A stretch of 64,000 nt of DNA from Candidatus Obscuribacterales bacterium (GTDB lineage Bacteria > Cyanobacteriota > Vampirovibrionia > Obscuribacterales > Obscuribacteraceae), in NCBI GenBank assembly GCA_020050835.1, contig JAGVKB010000102.1:1-64000 (forward strand), in the 5' to 3' direction. A program made the position numbers and the translations under genes. The notes beneath the pieces are model-generated. The model saw only the letters and a list, made by a program, of their open reading frames with translations, did not search any database and was not told the origin of the DNA. Of the stretch, positions 19,360-33,175 are shown in pieces. Numbering within the stretch: the first letter of the stretch is position 1; every line of letters starts with the position of its first letter.

Positions 19360-20544
19360 ATGGCTCGCCAGAAGTATGAAAGAAACAAACCTAACGTGAA
19401 CATCGGCACGATTGGACACGTCGATCACGGCAAGACTTCCCTGACAGCAGCCATCACCAAGATTTTGGCCGAGCAGGGCAAAGCTAAGTTCAAAGCCTAC
19501 GATGAAATCGATGCAGCTCCGGAAGAAAAGGCCAGAGGCATCACTATCAATACAGCGCACGTCGAGTATGAGACCGATGCGCGTCATTACAGCCACGTAG
19601 ACTGTCCTGGACACGCCGACTATATCAAGAACATGATCACCGGCGCCGCCCAGATGGACGGAGCTATTCTGGTCATCTCGGCTTCGGACGGACCGATGCC
19701 TCAGACCCGTGAGCACATCCTGCTCGCTCGTCAGGTTGGTGTTCCTCACATCGTGGTTTGGTTGAACAAGTGCGATATGGTCGACGATCCAGAATTGCTC
19801 GACCTGGTCGAAATGGAAGCACGCGAATTGCTTTCAAAGTATCAGTTTGACGGCGACGCGATTCCATTTGTGCGCGGCTCGGCTACCAAGGCTCTGGAAG
19901 GTGAAGCTGCCCAGAGAGATAATATCCATGCCTTGATGAAGGCGGTCGACGAGTACATTCCGACTCCAGAACGTGAAATTGATAAGCCGTTTTTGCTGGC
20001 GGTTGAAGACGTGTTCTCGATCACCGGTCGCGGCACGGTAGCCACCGGACGGATTGAGCGCGGACAGATCAAGGTCGGTGATGAAGTCGAAATCGTCGGT
20101 CTGCAAGAGACCCGCAAGACGACCGTAACCGGTGTCGAAATGTATCAGAAGACGCTTGATTCCGGGATCGCCGGCGACAACGTCGGAATCCTCCTGCGCG
20201 GTGTCGACAAGACCATGATTGAGCGCGGGCAGGTGCTCGCGAAGCCGGGTTCAATCAAGCCGCACACCAAATTCAACGCCGAAGTCTACGTTTTGAGCAA
20301 GGAAGAAGGCGGACGTCACACTCCGTTCTTCCCGGGCTACAGACCGCAGTTCTACATTCGCACAACCGACGTGACTGGATCGATCCAGTTGCCGACCGGG
20401 GTCGAAATGGTCATGCCCGGCGATAACGTCAACATGGTGGTGGAGCTGATCCAACCGGTTGCCGTCGAGCAAGGGATGCGATTCGCTATCCGCGAAGGCG
20501 GTCGTACCGTCGGAGCTGGTGTGGTCGCTTCGATTATCGAGTAG
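19360..20544 (+). CDS. tuf: Translation elongation factor Tu
   Basis: 394 residues, full length. EF-Tu delivers aminoacyl-tRNA to the ribosome and hydrolyses GTP. G1 GHVDHGKT (19-26), switch region with [15 protein letters not shown]3 DCPGHADY (Asp81), G4 NKCD and G5 near GSATKAL are intact; the domain 2-3 signature [16 protein letters not shown] is present. A purine-rich GGAGAGGAAAGAGG lies directly upstream of ATG 19360. Placed after three tRNAs, like tufB. The usual neighbours secE and nusG or rpsG and fusA are absent; a terminator and a kinase array follow. Confidence 0.98.
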
Positions 20545-20570: not shown

Positions 20571-20600
20571 AAGGGGGCGGTGCTTGAGCATCGCCCCTTC
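20571..20600 (+). terminator. Hairpin terminator after tuf
   Basis: AAGGGGGCGGTGC pairs with GCATCGCCCCTT (12 pairs, two G-U) around a TTGA loop, 26 nt after the tuf stop. Only two T follow, so termination may be partial. It also shows that the TTG at 20584, inside this loop, is not the start of the following kinase. Confidence 0.65.
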
Positions 20601-20760: not shown

Positions 20761-23700
20761 TTGAATCTCAAGGTCTTTCATCGGGGACTTATCCTGGTTG
20801 GAGTTCCGCTTGTCTGCGGTATGGCCATCCTGGCTTGCCTGTTTCTGGTAGTGCTGCGCACTGATCAAGAGGTGCTGCAAGGGCAAAGATACAAGCAAGT
20901 AGAAGAAAGAGTCTCCATTCTGGTGGTCACGGTTTACCACCTCGGGTGGGAGATGTCCGACATGTTGAGACATGGTTCGCTCGATAAATTGTCGGATATC
21001 ACGCAGAGTCTAAAAACGATCTTGAAGTTGAGGAATGAGCTGGCTTCAGAGGACGGAGATCCAAACGATCCGCAGTTTATAAAAACCAGAGACACTCTGG
21101 TCCAAGGGCTTAGGGTCGCGGCTGACGTGCTGAGAACCTGCTTAAAAAAGACTTTGACTGTACAAGCGGCCACCACCGGTCAGAATTTTACGAAGGAGCG
21201 CAGGCAGATCGGCGTCGAGCTGGATCGCACTTATGCTGCGATGCAGACTGTTCTGTCCAAGTCCCAGGACGAGATGGTTGAAGCTAATTTGCGCAAGCAG
21301 GCAGAGCTGCTCCGCATGCAAGCTTATATTCTCTTTGCTGGTCTGGTAATCAGCATCAGTCTGGCAGTGCTTCTTGCTGGTTTTTTTATGAAAAGCATCG
21401 TCAAGCGGCTGGCAGTGATCACTGATAACACCAGGCGGCTGCCGGAGGGATTGCCGCTCAATCCTGGACTGAAGGGCGCAGACGAATTGGCGGCAGTCGA
21501 CCGCGCTTTCCATCGTATGGCCTACGCGCTCGAGCAAACCAAAGAAAGAGAGCGCGCTCTGTTTGATAATGCCAGCGATGTAATCTGCGTAGTAGACAGC
21601 CAAGGAAAGTTTTCGCGGATTAATCCGGCATCACTTGAAGTCTGGGGAATTGGACCGGATGAAGTCCTCGGCAGCCCGCTCATTCAGCTGGTTTATAGTG
21701 AGGACAGGGATGCTGTTCTCAAAGCGATCAATCAAGCCCAGAGCGAGTCTCCCTCACTCGAGTTCGAATGCCGGCTTCAGTCGAAACACCAAACCTGGAT
21801 GGAGACTCTCTGGTCAGTCTACTGGTCGGAGAGTGAAGAGAGTCTCTTTTGTGTCGTTCACGATATCAGCGAGCGCAAGAAACTCGAGCGGATGAAGCAA
21901 GAATTCCTGGCAATGGTCAGCCACGACCTGCGCAGCCCACTCTCATCCATTGCCGGAGTATTTGAGCTGCTTGGTCGCGGCCGGTATGGCGAGCTGCCAC
22001 CACCGGCTGTTGAAAAGGTGGCGATGGCCAGCCGCAATGTCTCCAGACTTTTGACGATGGTCAATGATTTGCTGGACATGGAAAAACTTGATGCCGGGCA
22101 ACTTGAACTTTCCTTGCGACCGGTCGCTCTTAACGAGCTCATGGAGCGTTGTTTGCAAGAGGTAGCGACAGTTGCCGAGCAGCGCGGTGTAAGGCTCGAG
22201 CACGAGGTAAGTGGCGGCGAAGCGCAAATTGACGGTGATCGAATCATTCAGGTAGTGGTAAATCTTCTTTCCAATGCCATCAAATTTTCGCCCGAAGGCG
22301 CAGTGGTAAGGCTTTCTGCAAGCACTGACGGCGAGCTGCTGAAGATCAAAGTGGAAGATCAAGGGCGGGGAGTGCCACCAGAATTTCGCGAAGCAATTTT
22401 TGAAAGGTTCAAGCAGGTCGAGGCGGCTGACGGCAAGCCAAAGTCCGGCACCGGATTAGGATTGCCAATCTGCAAGCAGCTGGTCGAATTGCATGGCGGA
22501 ACTATCGGTGTAGACAGCGAAGAGGGAGTGGGCAGCTGCTTCTGGCTGAGGCTGCCGCTGACACCAGCGCTGGTGAAAGTTACGGATGGCGAGGCGACAG
22601 TGAGAATGGCCGCTGTCAGGGCTAGTTTGAACGAGAACAGCGCTGGGCAGTCCATCGCGAGCGATTCGCTGGAATCAACTGCTCCGGCAAGGCAGAGATT
22701 CTCCCTCCGCAACGATTTGTGCTTATTGCACAAAGGCTTGCTTCTGGTAACTGTTCCGGTGTTGTTCGAGCTCATCCTGGTGGGATTGTTGACGGTCGTG
22801 CTGGTGCAAGTGAATCAAGAAAAGGCTTACGAACGTTATCTGCACTCCGTCACTTATTATGCGACAAAGGTCGTAGCTGATTTCATGAAGGTAGGACGAG
22901 CGGTTTCCGGTCCGCGCAGTGAAGAGGCTTGGCGTTCCTTTCAAACTGCCGGGCTGGATGCTGGCTTGCAGATTGAAAAGTTGCGCGCTCAGACCAGTCG
23001 CGTTCCGTCCCTGGCTCGTGAATTCCAGGATTTCGAGCGCACCTACAAAAAAGGGCTGGCATACTTCGTGCACGTTCAGGAGCGGAGCAAGGGCAAGCCG
23101 TACAGCCGGGCCCTCGCCGACGATGTTTTTGCCGACCGTGAAAGTCTCGGACCGATTTGTGACCAGCTCGGAGCCCATCTGGTCATGACCATGGGAATTG
23201 TGGACGACATGCAATCCACCTCTCCCGAGCGCCAAGGCCAGTTGAGGCGCCAGCAAGGGATGCTGTTGACAGCCGGAGTGGCAGTGAATGTTGTTCTGTC
23301 ACTGATTTTGGCCATTTTCTTTGGCAAGGGGATTACCAGCCGGCTTTCAGTGCTAATGGAAAATGCCGAGCTGATGTCTCGGGAGCGGGAGCTCAGGCCG
23401 CCGTTAGCGGGCAGGGATGAGATTGCGCACCTCGATCGAGTCTTTCATGCCATGGTCTTAGCGCTGAGAGAAGCTTTCAGAAAGGAGCGAGCTGTCTTCG
23501 ATAACTCGCAAGATGTGATCTGCGCCATCGACGAACAGGGCGTTTTCAGGCAGATCAATTCTGCTTGTCTGCGAATGTGGGGATACACACCCGAGCAATT
23601 GCTGAACAACTCCGTATTAGGTCTTGTCAGCGCAGGCGATTACGATAGTTTGATGCACCAGGTTTCTGCTGCTCATTTAGCCGAAAGGGCAGTTCAATTC

Positions 23701-24528
23701 GAGAGCAGAGTGGAATGCAAGGATGGCAGCGTAAAGGAGATCTTGTGGTCTGCCAATTGGTCCGCTGACAGAAAGCTGCTCTTTTGTGTCGCTCATGATA
23801 TCTCCAAGCGCAAAGAGCTGGAACGGCTGAAACAGGAGTTTCTGGCGATGGTCAGTCATGATTTGAGGACTCCTCTGACTGCCATTAATGGAGTTGCCAA
23901 GTTAATGCTCGCCGCCGCGCTTGGCCCGCTGCCGGATCTGGCTAAGCAGAAATTGCAAGTGGTGGTAAAGAGCGTCGACCGACTGCTGAATCTCATCAAC
24001 GATCTCCTGGATATCGAAAAGCTCGATGCCGGTGAAATGCAGCTTTCAATCGAGCCGACTTCGATGGTCTCTGTTCTCGAACGCTCCAGTCAGGCGCTGG
24101 AAGGCTTGGCTCGGGACAAGCAGATTGAAATAGTAGTCAACTCCAGTGAGGGCAAGATTGCCGCCGACGGAGAGCGTCTGATTCAGGCGATCGTCAATCT
24201 CTTGTCCAATGCGATTAAATTCTCGCCTGAAGGCGCAACTGTCAGGCTCAGTGCGGAGCTGTCCGAAGGCTATTGCGAATTCAAAGTACAAGATCAAGGA
24301 AGAGGTATTCCTGAGGCATACCGCGGGGTTATCTTCGAGCGCTTCAAGCAGGTGGAAAATGATGATGGCAAGCGCGCTCGTGGAACCGGGCTGGGTTTGC
24401 CAATCTCCAAAAAGATTGTCGAGCAGCATGGTGGCATCATCGGTGTGGATAGCGAGATCGGCAAAGGCTCCACATTTTGGCTTCGGATTCCCGGTGTATC
24501 TGCTGAGGCGTTAAGAGAATGCAGCTGA
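20761..24528 (+). CDS. Duplicated hybrid-free sensor histidine kinase, copy 1 of 3
   Basis: About 1255 residues built as two complete sensor kinases in one chain. First half: TM helix (GLILVGVPLVCGMAILACL), helical sensory region, second TM near residues 190-215, HAMP, PAS (FDNASDVICVVDSQGKF), HisKA with His388 in MVSHDLRSPL, HATPase with GTGLGLPICKQL. Second half from about residue 640: TM, sensory region, TM, HAMP, PAS (FDNSQDVICAID), HisKA with His1033 in MVSHDLRTPL, HATPase with GTGLGLPISKKI. There is no receiver domain. I start at TTG 20761 because it aligns with the paralogues (NLKVFHRGL); the frame is open upstream but runs through the tuf terminator. It overlaps copy 2 by 10 nt. No response regulator is encoded nearby, so the phosphorylation target is unknown. 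Confidence 0.85.
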   Translation: MNLKVFHRGLILVGVPLVCGMAILACLFLVVLRTDQEVLQGQRYKQVEERVSILVVTVYHLGWEMSDMLRHGSLDKLSDITQSLKTILKLRNELASEDGDPNDPQFIKTRDTLVQGLRVAADVLRTCLKKTLTVQAATTGQNFTKERRQIGVELDRTYAAMQTVLSKSQDEMVEANLRKQAELLRMQAYILFAGLVISISLAVLLAGFFMKSIVKRLAVITDNTRRLPEGLPLNPGLKGADELAAVDRAFHRMAYALEQTKERERALFDNASDVICVVDSQGKFSRINPASLEVWGIGPDEVLGSPLIQLVYSEDRDAVLKAINQAQSESPSLEFECRLQSKHQTWMETLWSVYWSESEESLFCVVHDISERKKLERMKQEFLAMVSHDLRSPLSSIAGVFELLGRGRYGELPPPAVEKVAMASRNVSRLLTMVNDLLDMEKLDAGQLELSLRPVALNELMERCLQEVATVAEQRGVRLEHEVSGGEAQIDGDRIIQVVVNLLSNAIKFSPEGAVVRLSASTDGELLKIKVEDQGRGVPPEFREAIFERFKQVEAADGKPKSGTGLGLPICKQLVELHGGTIGVDSEEGVGSCFWLRLPLTPALVKVTDGEATVRMAAVRASLNENSAGQSIASDSLESTAPARQRFSLRNDLCLLHKGLLLVTVPVLFELILVGLLTVVLVQVNQEKAYERYLHSVTYYATKVVADFMKVGRAVSGPRSEEAWRSFQTAGLDAGLQIEKLRAQTSRVPSLAREFQDFERTYKKGLAYFVHVQERSKGKPYSRALADDVFADRESLGPICDQLGAHLVMTMGIVDDMQSTSPERQGQLRRQQGMLLTAGVAVNVVLSLILAIFFGKGITSRLSVLMENAELMSRERELRPPLAGRDEIAHLDRVFHAMVLALREAFRKERAVFDNSQDVICAIDEQGVFRQINSACLRMWGYTPEQLLNNSVLGLVSAGDYDSLMHQVSAAHLAERAVQFESRVECKDGSVKEILWSANWSADRKLLFCVAHDISKRKELERLKQEFLAMVSHDLRTPLTAINGVAKLMLAAALGPLPDLAKQKLQVVVKSVDRLLNLINDLLDIEKLDAGEMQLSIEPTSMVSVLERSSQALEGLARDKQIEIVVNSSEGKIAADGERLIQAIVNLLSNAIKFSPEGATVRLSAELSEGYCEFKVQDQGRGIPEAYRGVIFERFKQVENDDGKRARGTGLGLPISKKIVEQHGGIIGVDSEIGKGSTFWLRIPGVSAEALRECS

Positions 24529-27500
24529 ATCTCAAAGTCTTTCATCGTGGCTTGATCTTAGTGGGAGTACCGCTGCTCTGCGGGATTTTTATCCTCTCCA
24601 GCCTGTTTGTGGTAATTATTGAAACGGACAAGGAGGTGGCGCAGGGGCAGAAGTATAAACGGATCGAAGAAGAGGTCTCGATTCTGGTCGTGACGCTTTA
24701 TCATCTCGCATATCAGATGAAACTGGTGGTGCAGGAGGGTGCATTCGGGCAGATTTCGGAGATGACGGACAATCTGCGCACCATCGTTCAGGTAAAAAAG
24801 CAGCTTTTTGCCGATATTAGCGACTTCAAGCAGAGTAAGTATGACGAGGCTAGATATGCGATTAACGCGGGCTTGGGTACTGTCGCTCGTATTCTCAAGT
24901 CCTTTCTCGGCCGCGGGAGCAGTCTCCAAGCGATGTACGGCACCGACTTTCGCAAAGAGCGGCAGGATGTCGCCGTTCAGCTCGAGCAAGCATACAACGC
25001 CCTGCAAACACTCTTGTCGGAATCGCAGGAGCACCTGGTGGAAACCAGCTTGCGGAAGCAAGAGACGCTGCGTCAATTGCAGGCTTTTATCCTGTCCGGT
25101 GGTCTTTTGGTAAGCATCGTCTTGGCCATCGTATTGGCCAGATTTTTCATGAGCGGTATTGTTAAGCGTCTTGCCGTCATCACTGATAATACCGAACGGC
25201 TTTCTTCCGGGCAAACATTGAATCCTGGTTTGACCGGCGGCGATGAGATCGCCGAGGTCGACGAAGCCTTTCACGAAATGGCTGCCGCTCTAAGCCAAAC
25301 GGCTGAGCGCGAACGGGCTCTGTTCGACAACGCCAGCGACGTTATCTGCGTACTGAGTCAAGCCGGACGATTTACCAGGGTTAATCCGGCAACCTGGCGA
25401 GTATGGGGACGCCGCCCCGAAGACCTCAACGGCGCGGACCTGATCGAGCTGGTTTATCCCGAGGACAGAGAAGCGGTAATGACTGCCGTCGGGCGCGCTC
25501 AATCCGAGTCGCCTTCGCTTTCGTTCGAGTGTAGATTGCTCGCCAGCGATGATCGCTTGATGGAGACGCTCTGGTCGGTTTACTGGGCTGAGAGCGAAGA
25601 GAGCCTCTTCTGCGTGGTGCATGATATCAGCGAGCGCAAGAAGCTCGAGCGAATGAAGCAAGAGTTCCTGGCCATGGTAAGTCATGACCTGAGAAGTCCG
25701 CTCACCTCAATTACCGGCGTATTCGAGCTGCTCAGCCGAGGGAAGTACGGTGTGCTTTCCGCCGCGGCGATTGATAAGGTTGGCATGGCGAGAAGAAATG
25801 TCGCTCGTCTGCTATCGATGGTAAACGATCTGCTCGATATGGAAAAACTCGAGGCCGGACAGCTCGATTTGCAGATTCAGCCGGTGGAGATCTCAGATCT
25901 GCTTGGTAGCTGCCTGCAGGAAGTGGAAGGTTTGGCGGAGCAGCGCAAGGTCAAGCTCGATCTCAATTCCTGCCAGATGGAAGTCTCAATCGATGGCGAT
26001 CGCATCACTCAGGTGATCGTCAATCTACTTTCCAATGCTATCAAGTTTTCTCCGGCCGATGGCTTGGTGACGCTATCAGCGTGGGCAGTGGGCGATAAGC
26101 TGGAGATTCGAGTAAAAGATCAAGGTAGAGGTGTACCAGCGCTGTACCGGCAGTCTATCTTTGAGCGATTCAAACAAGTCGAAGCTGCTGATGGCAAGCG
26201 CAAGGCAGGTACTGGACTGGGATTGCCAATCTGCAAGCAGCTCGTCGAGCTGCACGGAGGGTCGATCGGGGTTGACAGCCAAGACGACCAGGGAAGTACT
26301 TTCTGGGTAGTACTGCCTCTGGTGCCGCAGGTGGTGGGACTGCAAGAGCTGGTGCGGACGGCTAGGTTGAGTGCCGTGCCCAGACCGGAGGGAGCGCGCG
26401 CCGAGGCCAAACTCAGTACTAAGACAGTTCAACCGGTTTCTGCGGTCGAGACCGGCAAACCACGATTTTCCCTGCGCAGCGATCTCAGCATGTTCCATAA
26501 GGGCGTCTTACTCGTAGGCGTACCGCTCACTTTCGAACTAATCCTGGTGGGATTGCTGACGGTGACATTAGTGCAGGTCAATAAAGTCAAACAGTACGAG
26601 CACTATCTGCACCAGATCAGTTATTCTGCCACTAAAATCGTCGCTGATTTCACGATGGCCGGCCGGATCGTATCCAGCCAGCACAGTCAAAGCGGTGTCA
26701 GTGCGTTTGCGGAGGTAGGCACAGATCTACTACAAGAGTATGAAAAACTGAGGGCGTTGGTCGCTCGTGATCCCGCTTTGACCGAAACGTTCGCCGAGTT
26801 CGATGAGAAGGCCAGGCCAGGTCTGGATTTCATCGTCCGCGATCTTAAAATTTACAAGCAGGTCTCTGATCCGAAATTGGCGCTGGGAATCGCCTTCAAG
26901 GATCGTGAGATGATGGAACCGGTAGTAGACAATCTTTCAGTCTATCTCGTTCGGTTTCTCACTCGTCTCGATGAGTTAAATTCAACCAGCCCGGAGCAGC
27001 AAGCCAGACTGCGCCGAGAACAAGGCATACTGCTGATTGCCGGTGTCTGCATCAACATTGCTCTTTCCATCTTGCTGGTGGCCTTTTTCAGCAGAGGCAT
27101 TAAGGACCGTTTGGCTGTCCTGAAGGAGAATGAAGTGCTGTTGGCTCGCGAGCAAGCGCTTCGCCCGCCGATGGCCGGTCGAGATGAAATAGCTCATCTG
27201 GACCGAGTGTTTCACAAGATGGCGATTAGCTTGAATGAAGCGCTGCATAAAGAGCGAGCAGTCTTCGACAACTCCCAGGACGTAATCTGCGCGATTGATC
27301 CTGACGGAGTTTTCCGGCAGATTAACTCGGCTTCTTCGAGATTGTGGGGCTATCAGCCGGAGCAGCTCTTGAATTCGTCTGTTTTCGGTCTGGTGGTGGC
27401 AGCGGATCACGATTCATTTTTCGAGCAGCTCCAGGCTGCTCAAAGTGGTGGCACGATCGTTTATTTCGAAAATCACGTTGACTGCAAAGACGGACAATCA

Positions 27501-28274
27501 AAGGACATCCTCTGGTCTGCCAACTGGTCAGAGCAACGCAAGCTGTTCTTCTGTGTGGCTCATGACATAACGGAGCGCAAAGAACTCGAACGTCTGAAGC
27601 AGGACTTCCTCTCAATGGTCAGCCACGACTTGCGGACGCCATTGACCGCGGTCAATGGCGTAGCCAAGCTGATGCTTGCTGGTGCGTTGGGACCGCTGCC
27701 GGAGCTGGCTGGTCAGAAGCTGCAAATTGTAGTGAATAACGTCGAACGCTTGCTCAATCTGATCAACGATCTGCTGGACATCGAAAAACTTGAAGCGGGT
27801 GAAATGCAGCTGTCTTTCGAGCCGACTGCCGTTGTTTCCATCCTGGAGCGCTCTGCCCAAGCGCTGGAAGGGCTGGCTAGAGAGCGGCAGGTGGAGGTGA
27901 TGGTGAAAGCCGGTGATGGGCAGATCAATGCCGATGGCGACCGTTTGATTCAAGCGCTCGTAAATCTTCTTTCCAACGCCATTAAATTTTCGCCGGAGGG
28001 AGGCACCGTCGCACTGTCAGCTGAGTTCAAAGATGGGTTTTGCGAGATGAGAGTAGCGGATCAAGGTCGAGGCATTCCGGAGAGTTATCGCAGCACTATT
28101 TTCGAGCGTTTCAAACAGGTCGAGGCCGCAGACGGAAAACGCTCAAAGGGAACTGGATTGGGCTTGCCAATTGCCAAGAAAATTGCCGAACAACACGGTG
28201 GTGCGATCGGGGTGGAGAGCGAAATCGGTAAAGGCTCGACCTTCTGGCTCAGAATTCCTGGTGCAACGCCCTAG
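24519..28274 (+). CDS. Duplicated sensor histidine kinase, copy 2 of 3
   Basis: 1251 residues with the same double architecture as its neighbours. Half one: TM 12-33, periplasmic-side helical domain to about 190, TM 190-213, HAMP, PAS 271-385, HisKA with His389 (MVSHDLRSPL), HATPase ending near 610. Half two: TM about 660-685, TM about 836-860 (ILLIAGVCINIALSILLVAF), HAMP with GRDEIAHLDRVFHKM, PAS, HisKA with His1036 (MVSHDLRTPL), HATPase with GTGLGLPIAKKI. The H, N (VNLLSNAIKFSP), G1 (DQGRG) and G2 boxes are complete in both halves, so both modules should be active. ATG 24519 lies inside the end of copy 1 with GAGG upstream, so the genes are translationally coupled. Confidence 0.88.
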   Translation: MQLNLKVFHRGLILVGVPLLCGIFILSSLFVVIIETDKEVAQGQKYKRIEEEVSILVVTLYHLAYQMKLVVQEGAFGQISEMTDNLRTIVQVKKQLFADISDFKQSKYDEARYAINAGLGTVARILKSFLGRGSSLQAMYGTDFRKERQDVAVQLEQAYNALQTLLSESQEHLVETSLRKQETLRQLQAFILSGGLLVSIVLAIVLARFFMSGIVKRLAVITDNTERLSSGQTLNPGLTGGDEIAEVDEAFHEMAAALSQTAERERALFDNASDVICVLSQAGRFTRVNPATWRVWGRRPEDLNGADLIELVYPEDREAVMTAVGRAQSESPSLSFECRLLASDDRLMETLWSVYWAESEESLFCVVHDISERKKLERMKQEFLAMVSHDLRSPLTSITGVFELLSRGKYGVLSAAAIDKVGMARRNVARLLSMVNDLLDMEKLEAGQLDLQIQPVEISDLLGSCLQEVEGLAEQRKVKLDLNSCQMEVSIDGDRITQVIVNLLSNAIKFSPADGLVTLSAWAVGDKLEIRVKDQGRGVPALYRQSIFERFKQVEAADGKRKAGTGLGLPICKQLVELHGGSIGVDSQDDQGSTFWVVLPLVPQVVGLQELVRTARLSAVPRPEGARAEAKLSTKTVQPVSAVETGKPRFSLRSDLSMFHKGVLLVGVPLTFELILVGLLTVTLVQVNKVKQYEHYLHQISYSATKIVADFTMAGRIVSSQHSQSGVSAFAEVGTDLLQEYEKLRALVARDPALTETFAEFDEKARPGLDFIVRDLKIYKQVSDPKLALGIAFKDREMMEPVVDNLSVYLVRFLTRLDELNSTSPEQQARLRREQGILLIAGVCINIALSILLVAFFSRGIKDRLAVLKENEVLLAREQALRPPMAGRDEIAHLDRVFHKMAISLNEALHKERAVFDNSQDVICAIDPDGVFRQINSASSRLWGYQPEQLLNSSVFGLVVAADHDSFFEQLQAAQSGGTIVYFENHVDCKDGQSKDILWSANWSEQRKLFFCVAHDITERKELERLKQDFLSMVSHDLRTPLTAVNGVAKLMLAGALGPLPELAGQKLQIVVNNVERLLNLINDLLDIEKLEAGEMQLSFEPTAVVSILERSAQALEGLARERQVEVMVKAGDGQINADGDRLIQALVNLLSNAIKFSPEGGTVALSAEFKDGFCEMRVADQGRGIPESYRSTIFERFKQVEAADGKRSKGTGLGLPIAKKIAEQHGGAIGVESEIGKGSTFWLRIPGATP

Positions 28275-28291
28275 GCTTGGAGCAGATTCAA

Positions 28292-31200
28292 TTGAACCTT
28301 AAGGTACTTCATCGCGGTCTGATTTTAGTGGGAGTGCCTTTGCTATGCGGAATTTGTCTGGTGTGTTGCCTGTTTCTGGTGATACTAGAAACTGATAAAG
28401 AGGTGGCGCTCGGACAGAAGTACAAGCGCATTGAAAAAGAAGTCTCGATGCTGGTGGTCAACGTCTATCACCTGGGGTACCAGATGACGGTGGTGGTAAA
28501 AGACGGCGCTTTCGACCAGTTGGGCGGCATGATGGAGACTCTGCGTGAAGTAGTGCGGCTCCGAAAGGTGCTCTTTGCCGATCTGGCGGATCTAAACGAG
28601 GCTAAGTACTCGCAGACTAAAGAGACAATCAATCGCTTTCTAGCTATGGTGGCCGATATCATCAAGTCATTTCTGGGGCGTGGCAGTTCGCTTCAGTCTG
28701 CGTATGCAACCGACTTCAATCGGCAGCGTGTGGACATCGCTGTTCAGCTAGATGGTATTTATGGCGCTTTGCAAAGGCTCCTGGCCGAGTCGCAAGAGCA
28801 GTTAGTGGAGACTAGTTTGCAGAAGCAGGAGTCTCTGCGCAATGTGCAAGCAGGAATTCTTTTCGCGGGTCTGCTTTCAAGCGTTCTACTGGCATTCATT
28901 CTGGCTAGGTTCTTCATGCAAAGCGTCGTGGGACGGTTAGAGGTGATCACTGACAACGCCCGAAGGCTCTCGACCGGACAGCCATTAAATCAGAGATTAA
29001 CCGGCTCAGATGAGATTGCCGAAGTAGATCTCACCTTTCATGAGATGGCCGATGCGCTCAAGCAGACCATGGAGCGCGAGCGAGCGCTGTTCGATAATGC
29101 CAGTGATGTGATCTGCGTGCTCGATAGAACGGGCCGGTTTCTGCGGATAAATCCGGCTTGCTGGCGAGTCTGGGGGCGTCGTGCCGAAGATCTGGTGGGC
29201 GTACCATTGATCGACCAGGTCTACAGCGAAGACCGCAAACTGGTGCTTGACTCAATCGAGCAGGCGCAGACAGTCACGCCGGCTCTGTCCTTTGAGTGCC
29301 GGCTATTTTCTAGCCAGGAGCAATTGATGGAGACGCTCTGGTCGGTTTACTGGGCGGAAAGCGAAGAGAGTCTCTTTTGCGTGGTGCACGACGTAAGCGA
29401 GCGCAAAAAAGTCCAGCGAATGAAGAGAGAGTTTTTGGCAATGGTAAGCCACGACTTAAGGAGCCCGCTTACATCCATTACCGGCATCTTCGAGTTGCTC
29501 AGCCGGGGCTTGTTCGGTGAGCTGTCGGCGAAGGCTTTGGACAAGGTTTCGATCGCCAAACGCAATGTCTCGAGACTGCTGTCACTGGTCAATGACTTGC
29601 TGGATATGGAGAAGCTTGAGGCTGGGCAGATCGAGCTACAGATTGAGCCGGTGGAGATCTCCGATCTTCTCGGGTCATGCTTGCAGGAAGTCGAGGCACT
29701 AGCCGCTTCGCGCCAAGTAAGATTGGACCTCAATCCGTGCCAGCAGGAGATTCAATTGGACAGCGATCGCATTATCCAGGTGGTGATCAATCTTCTTTCC
29801 AATGCCATCAAGTTTTCGCCAAGCGGGGGATTGGTGACGCTTGCCGCGCGGGTTGTCGGTGAAGAGATACTGATCTCAGTTTCGGATCAAGGTCGGGGAG
29901 TTCCGGCGCAATACCGTCAGTCGATCTTCGAGCGCTTCAAGCAGGTAGAGGCCGCCGACGGAAAGCGAAAGTCAGGGACAGGGCTGGGCTTGCCGATTTG
30001 CAAACAGCTGGTGGATTTACATGGCGGAGAGATCGGAGTAGACAGCGAGGAAGGCAAAGGCAGTACTTTCTGGATTAAATTGGCGATGGTACCGCAGGCG
30101 ATGAATGTCGAAGAGCGGGCGGCAACTTCCGGTGCTGGTGCGTACCAACCGACAAATTTGGACGGAAAGACCGAGCCAGTAAACCGCGCCGTCCAACCGG
30201 CGATGACAAACCAGCCAAGCTCCGGGAGGCTGTCTCTCCCGCGAGATTTCGGTATGTTGCAAAAGGGTTTGGTGTTGGTGGGTGTTCCCGTCCTCTTTGA
30301 ACTGGTGCTAGTCGGGCTCTTGACGGCAGTTCTTGTGCAGGTCAATCAGGTCAAACACTACGAGCATTATCTCCACCAGGTTACCTATACTGCCACCAGG
30401 ATAGTTGCTGACTTCACCAAGATCGGCCGGATAGTATCGGGCGAGCGCAACCAGGCTGCGGTGAACGAATTCAACAAGGTCGGCAGCGATCTCCTGGTTG
30501 AGTATGAAAAGATGAGAGCGTTAGCTGCTCGCGATCCGTCCTTGCTGGAAGTCTTCTCCAGTTACGATCAGCTGGTTAGACCAGGCATGCAATTTGTCGC
30601 AAATGGCTTGGAGACTTTCAAGCGAGCTCCCGATCCGAAGCGGTCAATTGCCTTTGCTTTTAAAGACCGAGAGATGTTGGGTCCGCTGGTCGACAGACTG
30701 GCCCAATACTTGATCAAATTCGGCGACCGGCTCGATCCGATGCAAGTTATAAGCCCGGAGTATCAAGCCAGGCTGCGCGGCCAGCAAGGCGCTCTCTTGA
30801 TCGCCGGGGCCGGTATCAATCTGGCTATTTCAATGCTTCTAGTAGTCTTTTTTAGTCGCGATATCAACGATCGCTTGGCTGTACTTAAGGAAAACGAGCT
30901 GCGCTTAGCCCGCGAGCAAGTGTTAAGAGCTCCGATGCCCGGGCGTGACGAAATTGCCCGGTTGGATAGTGTCTTTCACCGCATGGCCATCAGCTTGAAT
31001 GAAGCGCTGCAGAAGGAAAGAGCGGTCTTCGACAACTCTCAGGACGTGATCTGCGCATTTGACAGTGGTGGTCTGTTCAGACAGGTAAACTCGGCATCGA
31101 TCTCGTTGTGGGGATTCAAGCCCGACCAACTTTTGAATTCTTCCGTTTTCGAGCTGGTGGTGGCAGAAGAGCAAGCGGAGTTGTTCTGTCAATTTCAATC

Positions 31201-32029
31201 AGCCAAGGATAGCGGTCAGGTGGTCAATTTCGAAAGTCGCCTTCGGTGCTCCGACGGTACGCTCAAGGATACTTTCTGGTCTGCAAACTGGTCGGCTGAA
31301 AGGGAGCTTTTGTTTTGTGTCGGTCACGATGTAACCAAAGTCAAAGAGCTGGAAAGATTGAAGCAGGAGTTCCTGGCAATGGTTAGCCACGACCTGCGCG
31401 GACCGCTCAATAATATCAATGGAGTGGCCGAGCTGATCCTGGTTGGCGCCATGGGACCGCTGCCGGAGCTGGCGGAGCAGAAGCTGCAGATAGTGGTAAA
31501 GAACGTCGAACGTTTGCTCAATTTGATAAACGATCTGCTCGACATCGCAAAACTCGAAGCGGGAGAGATGCAGCTGTCTCTCGAGCCGACACCGGTTGCC
31601 TCCATCCTGGAGAGATCGGCGCAGGCGCTCGAAGGAATGGCCAAAGCGAAGCAGGTGGATTTGGTTGTAGAAGCCGGTGACGGACTGGTCAATGTTGATG
31701 CCGACCGGTTGATTCAAGCGCTCGTAAATCTGCTTTCAAACGCCATCAAGTTTTCACCAGAAGGAAGTACCGTTACTCTTTCAGCAGAATTTAGCGATGG
31801 CAGCTGCGAGTTGAAAGTGGCGGATCAAGGACGAGGTATTCCGGAGAGTTATCTCAACGCCATCTTCGAGCGGTTTAAACAAGTCGAGGCCGCTGACGGC
31901 AAAGGCGCAAAGGGGACCGGCTTGGGATTGCCGATCGCCAAGAAAATCGTGGAGGGTCATGGCGGCTCGATCGGGGTCGAAAGCAAATCCGGTGTGGGGT
32001 CCAGTTTCTGGATCAGGCTGCCTGGGTAG
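28292..32029 (+). CDS. Duplicated sensor histidine kinase, copy 3 of 3
   Basis: About 1245 residues, again TM-sensor-TM-HAMP-PAS-HisKA-HATPase repeated twice. His387 (MVSHDLRSPL) and His1033 are the phosphoacceptors; the second box reads MVSHDLRGPL, with Gly where the paralogues have Thr, a small change in the HisKA motif. N box VNLLSNAIKFSP and GTGLGLPI are intact in both halves. The second-half D-to-K change DIAKLEAG replaces DIEKLEAG. I start at TTG 28292, which has GGAG 9 nt upstream and aligns with the family; TTG 28277 is the alternative and is only 3 nt after copy 2. Last gene of the kinase operon. Confidence 0.87.
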   Translation: MNLKVLHRGLILVGVPLLCGICLVCCLFLVILETDKEVALGQKYKRIEKEVSMLVVNVYHLGYQMTVVVKDGAFDQLGGMMETLREVVRLRKVLFADLADLNEAKYSQTKETINRFLAMVADIIKSFLGRGSSLQSAYATDFNRQRVDIAVQLDGIYGALQRLLAESQEQLVETSLQKQESLRNVQAGILFAGLLSSVLLAFILARFFMQSVVGRLEVITDNARRLSTGQPLNQRLTGSDEIAEVDLTFHEMADALKQTMERERALFDNASDVICVLDRTGRFLRINPACWRVWGRRAEDLVGVPLIDQVYSEDRKLVLDSIEQAQTVTPALSFECRLFSSQEQLMETLWSVYWAESEESLFCVVHDVSERKKVQRMKREFLAMVSHDLRSPLTSITGIFELLSRGLFGELSAKALDKVSIAKRNVSRLLSLVNDLLDMEKLEAGQIELQIEPVEISDLLGSCLQEVEALAASRQVRLDLNPCQQEIQLDSDRIIQVVINLLSNAIKFSPSGGLVTLAARVVGEEILISVSDQGRGVPAQYRQSIFERFKQVEAADGKRKSGTGLGLPICKQLVDLHGGEIGVDSEEGKGSTFWIKLAMVPQAMNVEERAATSGAGAYQPTNLDGKTEPVNRAVQPAMTNQPSSGRLSLPRDFGMLQKGLVLVGVPVLFELVLVGLLTAVLVQVNQVKHYEHYLHQVTYTATRIVADFTKIGRIVSGERNQAAVNEFNKVGSDLLVEYEKMRALAARDPSLLEVFSSYDQLVRPGMQFVANGLETFKRAPDPKRSIAFAFKDREMLGPLVDRLAQYLIKFGDRLDPMQVISPEYQARLRGQQGALLIAGAGINLAISMLLVVFFSRDINDRLAVLKENELRLAREQVLRAPMPGRDEIARLDSVFHRMAISLNEALQKERAVFDNSQDVICAFDSGGLFRQVNSASISLWGFKPDQLLNSSVFELVVAEEQAELFCQFQSAKDSGQVVNFESRLRCSDGTLKDTFWSANWSAERELLFCVGHDVTKVKELERLKQEFLAMVSHDLRGPLNNINGVAELILVGAMGPLPELAEQKLQIVVKNVERLLNLINDLLDIAKLEAGEMQLSLEPTPVASILERSAQALEGMAKAKQVDLVVEAGDGLVNVDADRLIQALVNLLSNAIKFSPEGSTVTLSAEFSDGSCELKVADQGRGIPESYLNAIFERFKQVEAADGKGAKGTGLGLPIAKKIVEGHGGSIGVESKSGVGSSFWIRLPG

Positions 32030-32279: not shown

Positions 32280-32319
32280 GATTTAGAATTTCAACCGATA
32301 TCGGTTGAAATTCTAAATC
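32280..32319. repeat. Perfect 40-bp palindrome
   Basis: GATTTAGAATTTCAACCGAT (32280-32299) is followed immediately by its exact reverse complement (32300-32319), with a GATATC centre and no spacer. Flanking bases 32279 and 32320 do not pair. There is no U-tract on either side. It could be an operator, a cruciform site or a relic of a small inverted-repeat element. Confidence 0.9.
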
Positions 32320-32818: not shown

Positions 32819-33175
32819 ATGGCGCGCGCCAAAACATCTAATAAGACGGAAGGTGCAGCAGCAGGATCCAAGGTTCAGCGGATTCGTATCCGTTTGAAAT
32901 CCTACGATCATCGGTTGCTCGACAAGTCTGCTGAGCAGATTGTGGAAACGGCCAAGCGCACTGGCGCGACCGTATGCGGACCGATACCGCTGCCGACCAA
33001 GAAGCGCATCTATTGCGTTTTGAGATCGCCGCACGTCGATAAGAAGTCGCGCGAGCACTTCGAGATTCGCATTCACAAACGGCTCATCGATATCAACGAC
33101 CCAACACCAACGACTGCCGATGGGCTTATGCGGCTCGATCTTCCAGCCGGTGTCGAAATTGAAGTGAAGCTCTAA
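32819..33175 (+). CDS. rpsJ: 30S ribosomal protein S10
   Basis: 118 residues against about 103 usual; the extra length is a basic/Ala N-terminus ([16 protein letters not shown]). The core is typical ([20 protein letters not shown], then GPIPLPTKK and [11 protein letters not shown]-like strands, [16 protein letters not shown]). S10 sits in the 30S head and with NusB also acts in antitermination. GGAGAGGA lies upstream of ATG. First gene of the S10-spc-alpha run. Confidence 0.97.

Follow-up and report, generated by a model that had tools for sequence, protein, structure and literature searches.

The nearest described counterparts of the proteins discussed here are split histidine kinases and kinases with two transmitter modules. 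CheA3 and CheA4 of Rhodobacter sphaeroides form a split histidine kinase, made as two separate proteins; EnvZ can be split artificially, and modelling predicts that split kinases give switch-like responses (PMC3591291). As for double transmitters, the sections cited here of a 2010 survey of prokaryotic two-component genes list 2 non-hybrid kinases with two transmitters (‘TT’) among 15,704, and there the other double transmitters accompany receivers, as in TodS (PMC3018481). In the open-access literature we found no description of a split kinase with fused partners, and a search of it for kinases of Obscuribacter or Vampirovibrionia brought up nothing on double kinases of the kind described below.

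The locus lies in a 64-kb stretch of DNA (‘the window’), part of a 274-kb contig in the genome (7.0 Mb, 154 contigs) of a Candidatus Obscuribacterales bacterium. Photosystem reaction-centre genes occur in genomes of the same phylum and in none of the same-class genomes tested, so the host class belongs to the non-photosynthetic Cyanobacteriota. The initial annotation described three adjacent, co-oriented genes of about 1250 codons, overlapping or nearly so, each encoding two complete TM-sensor-TM-HAMP-PAS-HisKA-HATPase kinases with intact H, N and G boxes, and this description stands in every part. The genes, K1–K3, are listed with their halves and flanks in the table. By Pfam, each protein has two HisKA domains, two HATPase_c domains and two PAS stretches, with HAMP weak but detected; on hydropathy, each half has two TM segments, which makes four in a protein. 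All six modules retain intact H, N, G1 and G2 boxes (motif table), and both halves of each protein thus carry the phosphoacceptor His and the ATP-site boxes of a HisKA-type sensor kinase. K1 and K2 overlap by 10 bp and K2 ends 2 bp before K3, which suggests a single, translationally coupled operon; the terminator-like hairpin after tuf suggests that this is a transcription unit separate from tuf. A perfect 40-bp palindrome, GATTTAGAATTTCAACCGATATCGGTTGAAATTCTAAATC, lies between K3 and rpsJ (window 32280-32319). It is a single copy in the genome, allowing up to three mismatches, which rules it out as a member of a repeat family; it is a possible operator or terminator.

Features of the double-kinase locus and its flanks (window coordinates; boundaries of halves are approximate)
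Feature	Position	Strand	Remarks
tuf (EF-Tu), left flank	19360..20544	+	ORF; 87-94% identity to relatives' tuf
Terminator-like hairpin 3' of tuf	20572..20599	+	12-bp stem, 4-nt loop; consensus match only
K1, double histidine kinase	20761..24528	+	1255 aa; TTG start; H boxes at residues 388 and 1033
K1 first half (sensor-HAMP-PAS-DHp-CA)	20761..22593	+	First-half clade 100/100; HDLRS; N/G boxes intact
K1 second half	22708..24525	+	Second-half clade 99/97; HDLRT; N/G boxes intact
K2, double histidine kinase	24519..28274	+	1251 aa; H boxes at residues 389 and 1036
K2 first half	24519..26354	+	First-half clade; motif table
K2 second half	26481..28271	+	Second-half clade; motif table
K3, double histidine kinase	28277..32029	+	1250 aa; TTG start; H boxes at residues 392 and 1038
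K3 first half	28277..30121	+	First-half clade; motif table
K3 second half	30239..32026	+	HDLRG: Gly replaces Thr at phosphatase-motif position
rpsJ (S10), right flank, first gene of S10 operon	32819..33175	+	79-90% identity to most relatives' rpsJ

The three copies are real. Their pairwise DNA identity is 62.1-67.7%, the longest identical run is 32 bp, and their GC content is in line with that of the window. An assembly artefact or duplication, the circumstance named at the outset as fatal to the triplication, is ruled out by this divergence, by the shortness of the identical runs and by the length of the contig.

The model of the K2 first-half sensor has a mean pLDDT of 82, and its best Foldseek match is a fragment of NarQ (PDB 5jgp; 14% identity, E 3e-4, TM-score about 0.5); both are TM-flanked helical bundles with HAMP, sharing the same general fold at most. 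Among solved structures, the nearest relatives of the second half of K2 are HK853 of Thermotoga maritima and VicK/WalK-type kinases (PDB 2c2a, 3dge and 4i5s), which have the same HisKA-HATPase core, with one module per chain. In the AlphaFold model of K2 residues 205-1251 (pTM 0.48) the domains are confident and their mutual arrangement is not, so the packing of the halves cannot be read from it.

The position of the kinases inside a core translation locus was initially thought odd. It is not special. In 28 relatives a single stretch covers both tuf and rpsJ, mostly arranged as selA-trmH-tuf-rpsJ, and the gap between the two genes (L096-L132) ranges from 333 to 7031 bp. The gap is bare (<750 bp) in nine and filled with unrelated cargo in the other 19: to go by names read from translations, serine/threonine-kinase-like pairs with TPR proteins, pilus-like genes, TPR genes, a spermidine-synthase-like gene, one unrelated PAS kinase and others. 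This cargo differs between genera of the family. A search for the same tuf-kinase-rpsJ order, which the annotation had proposed, found double kinases there in none of the 28. The gap is a recurrent variable cargo slot in the family, and its content in the source genome need not concern translation. A functional tie of the kinases to translation, argued from position, is unsupported, since none of the 28 shares the placement and the cargo is unrelated.

Double kinases are not confined to the window. A profile search across 50 genomes of the family returned 28 doubles (a few run off the end of a contig) from nine genomes: six in the source genome (K1–K3 and three elsewhere) and 22 in eight others (G006, G011, G016, G026, G028, G032, G034 and G065). 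G015 has fragments and a probably broken double. Two split doubles of G034 stand in tandem, 14 bp apart (C506; L145:3090-10618), so tandem amplification is not unique to the window. Outside the family we found none: not among the best two candidates per genome (E 1e-140) when 386 genomes of the phylum were sampled, the source genome excepted; not among the best 12 candidates per genome in three genomes of the same order; and, among the loci found in other phyla, none of the K1–K3 kind.

How the doubles arose can be read from a tree of 66 modules. It resolves three clades: one of 19 first halves (100/100), one of 19 second halves (99/97) and one of 28 single kinases (100/100). Each half of K1–K3 falls in its own-half clade, with no pairing within genes, as had been anticipated, and a separate duplication inside each gene is thereby ruled out. 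The branching K1,(K2,K3) is identical in the two half clades; the double therefore has a single origin, and tandem duplication enlarged the locus step by step. The proposal that the double kinase arose once and was then triplicated survives as to the single origin and the tandem growth, and needs correcting as to the place: the fusion predates the locus, 25 doubles lying elsewhere. When short kinases serve as the outgroup, the two halves come out as sisters (SH-aLRT 87), which favours internal duplication over a fusion of two unlike kinases. The double thus probably descends from a membrane kinase with a PAS domain that was duplicated internally. G013 (L144:7157-14465) and G066 (L220:778-8092) each have a row of four intact single kinases of this family, whose genes overlap or almost do; arrays of this sort could give rise to a double.

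The two halves of the doubles have decayed in complementary ways. According to the motif tables, all 28 doubles keep the second-half His and 27 have intact first-half ATP-site boxes; the first-half His is kept in 6, and the second-half ATP site in 7. No single residue substitutes for the lost His: S, Q, F, R, G, Y and N all occur in its place. Both losses occur together in 21 doubles, and to judge from these motifs neither half of those proteins should be able to autophosphorylate alone. All 36 solitary kinases of the source genome that we examined retain both sites. Sequence drift follows the same division: among the 21 split doubles, the DHp domain has a mean pairwise identity of 38% in the first half and 54% in the second, and the CA domain one of 54% and 26%, respectively, while in the five intact doubles (K1–K3, C85 and G006a) all four values are 60-70%. 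One double of the source genome, C56, has lost only the first-half His and is an apparent intermediate; the G016 double shows the opposite decay, loss of the first-half ATP site. Owing to shared ancestry the 21 split doubles are not 21 independent events. The split feature—one partner without acceptor His, the other without ATP site—is absent from K1–K3, which belong to an unreduced branch of the doubles.

The same division is found between unfused neighbours. The partners within K1–K3 are fused in one frame; at other loci they are separate adjacent genes. In three such pairs (C114 and C141 of the source genome, and G007) the first gene has lost the His and kept the ATP site, and the second has kept the His, its ATP site being lost or eroded. 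The genes of each pair are mutual sisters (support 98, 98 and 99), so their split evolved independently of that of the doubles. Similar adjacent kinases at C12 105545-108829 show the reversed order of loss, and the His-less gene has an in-frame stop. In the wider region of G000 C12 (about 105.5-110 kb; L148:6516-10973) this appears as an in-frame TAA within the ATP domain of the His-less kinase, whose gene is possibly decaying. Parsimony on a quick tree calls for six changes for loss of the His and six for loss of the ATP site, the latter counting this truncated C12 gene.

What is conserved across the doubles, then, is probably a core in which the first-half ATP site acts on the second-half His. 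We consider it probable that the doubles form a family of single-chain split kinases, in which autophosphorylation from half to half is obligatory, with the same division of labour having evolved repeatedly from tandem kinases in the bacterial family and the window holding the unreduced starting form amplified threefold. As for the window's own proteins, we lean slightly towards regarding K1–K3 as tandem paralogues of a four-TM double kinase in which the ATP site of the first half would serve the His of the second within a pseudo-dimer. The two DHp domains of one chain would pair as in a homodimer, the first-half ATP-binding domain would phosphorylate the second-half His, and from there the phosphate would move on to a response regulator whose gene lies elsewhere; the helical-bundle sensors and PAS domains of both halves would in this way feed a single output. 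Histidine kinases are usually dimers, autophosphorylating in trans or in cis (PMC5956149), and the phosphate might instead cross between the two chains of a double-kinase dimer, from the first half of one to the second half of the other. This arrangement has the same half-to-half flow, differing only in the use of two chains rather than one, and the data accommodate both equally; we rate it as improbable.

The decay of the relatives also bears on whether the halves need one another at all. Each half might be an independent kinase, autophosphorylating with its copy in the neighbouring chain and serving its own response regulator, with fusion doing no more than equalising amounts. The intact boxes of the six window modules are compatible with this, as is the existence of intact tandem kinases as separate genes (C35, G013, G066 and G072), but for the family it is contradicted by the 21 doubles in which neither half could act alone, and we think it unlikely. 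Loss is seen in relatives, and K1–K3, C85 and G006a are intact, so a need for cooperation is not implied for the proteins of the window; cooperation of the halves in K1–K3 themselves is likely but not forced, and their first-half His, being intact along with its ATP site, could be phosphorylated too. Alternatively, the first half might be a regulatory, ATP-binding pseudokinase that acts allosterically on the second, whose His would be phosphorylated by another kinase of the cell. First halves that lack the His do still carry ATP-site boxes, and His-less kinase-like proteins with a regulatory role exist, DivL for example, a solved structure of which is among the PDB relatives. Conservation of the first-half catalytic boxes while the second-half ATP site was lost, repeatedly and in unfused adjacent pairs as well, speaks against such a role, and a phosphate donor within the same double or pair is the simpler assumption; this we regard as decidedly unlikely.

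The phosphatase motif HE/DxxN/T includes the residue four after the His (PMC3591291). That residue is Thr in 21 second halves, including those of K1 and K2, and Asn in one. The second half of K3 has Gly there, and each first half of K1–K3 has Ser. If the motif applies here, phosphatase activity would reside mainly in the second half.

Receivers are plentiful in the genome (142 matches, with 94 for HATPase_c) and remote from the locus. The window contains none, as first reported, the nearest on the contig being at 131610, some 100 kb away, and there is no receiver match in K1–K3 or in the other doubles scanned. The best lead to a cognate partner for the double-kinase family comes from G016, where a 227-aa response regulator is encoded 62 bp downstream of the double (L143:3773-8276). 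Elsewhere, large hybrid kinases, one of them 2143 aa long, form a cluster with many receiver domains on G000 C128 (L152:5371-16385).

One organism thus holds the stages of decay, from doubles with both halves intact (K1–K3 and C85) through a single loss (C56) to a full split (the C12 double). This makes the passage from a homodimeric kinase to an obligate two-part kinase directly testable, and likewise the idea that a fused split kinase merges two signals into one output; split kinases, modelling suggests, can act as switches (PMC3591291). Like TodS of Pseudomonas putida, K1–K3 have two transmitter modules in one polypeptide, each preceded by a PAS domain. TodS, as described in the sections cited, has a receiver between its modules and works by a T-R-T phosphorelay (PMC4321377, PMC3018481), whereas K1–K3 have four TM segments and no receiver, either between or after the transmitters. 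In this they resemble the TT proteins of the survey, where, in the sections cited, receiver-free double transmitters are almost absent (2/15,704; PMC3018481); here they constitute a lineage, with six in the source genome alone. In CheA3/CheA4, ATP-binding and phosphate-accepting roles fall to two partners, neither sufficient alone, and the acceptor partner holds the transfer and phosphatase functions (PMC3591291), as we suppose for the split doubles. Unlike the doubles, CheA3 and CheA4 are separate chemotaxis proteins that are missing whole domains (PMC3591291); the split doubles are full membrane sensor kinases in one chain, inactivated by substitutions and drift, and K1–K3 show no reduction of any kind.
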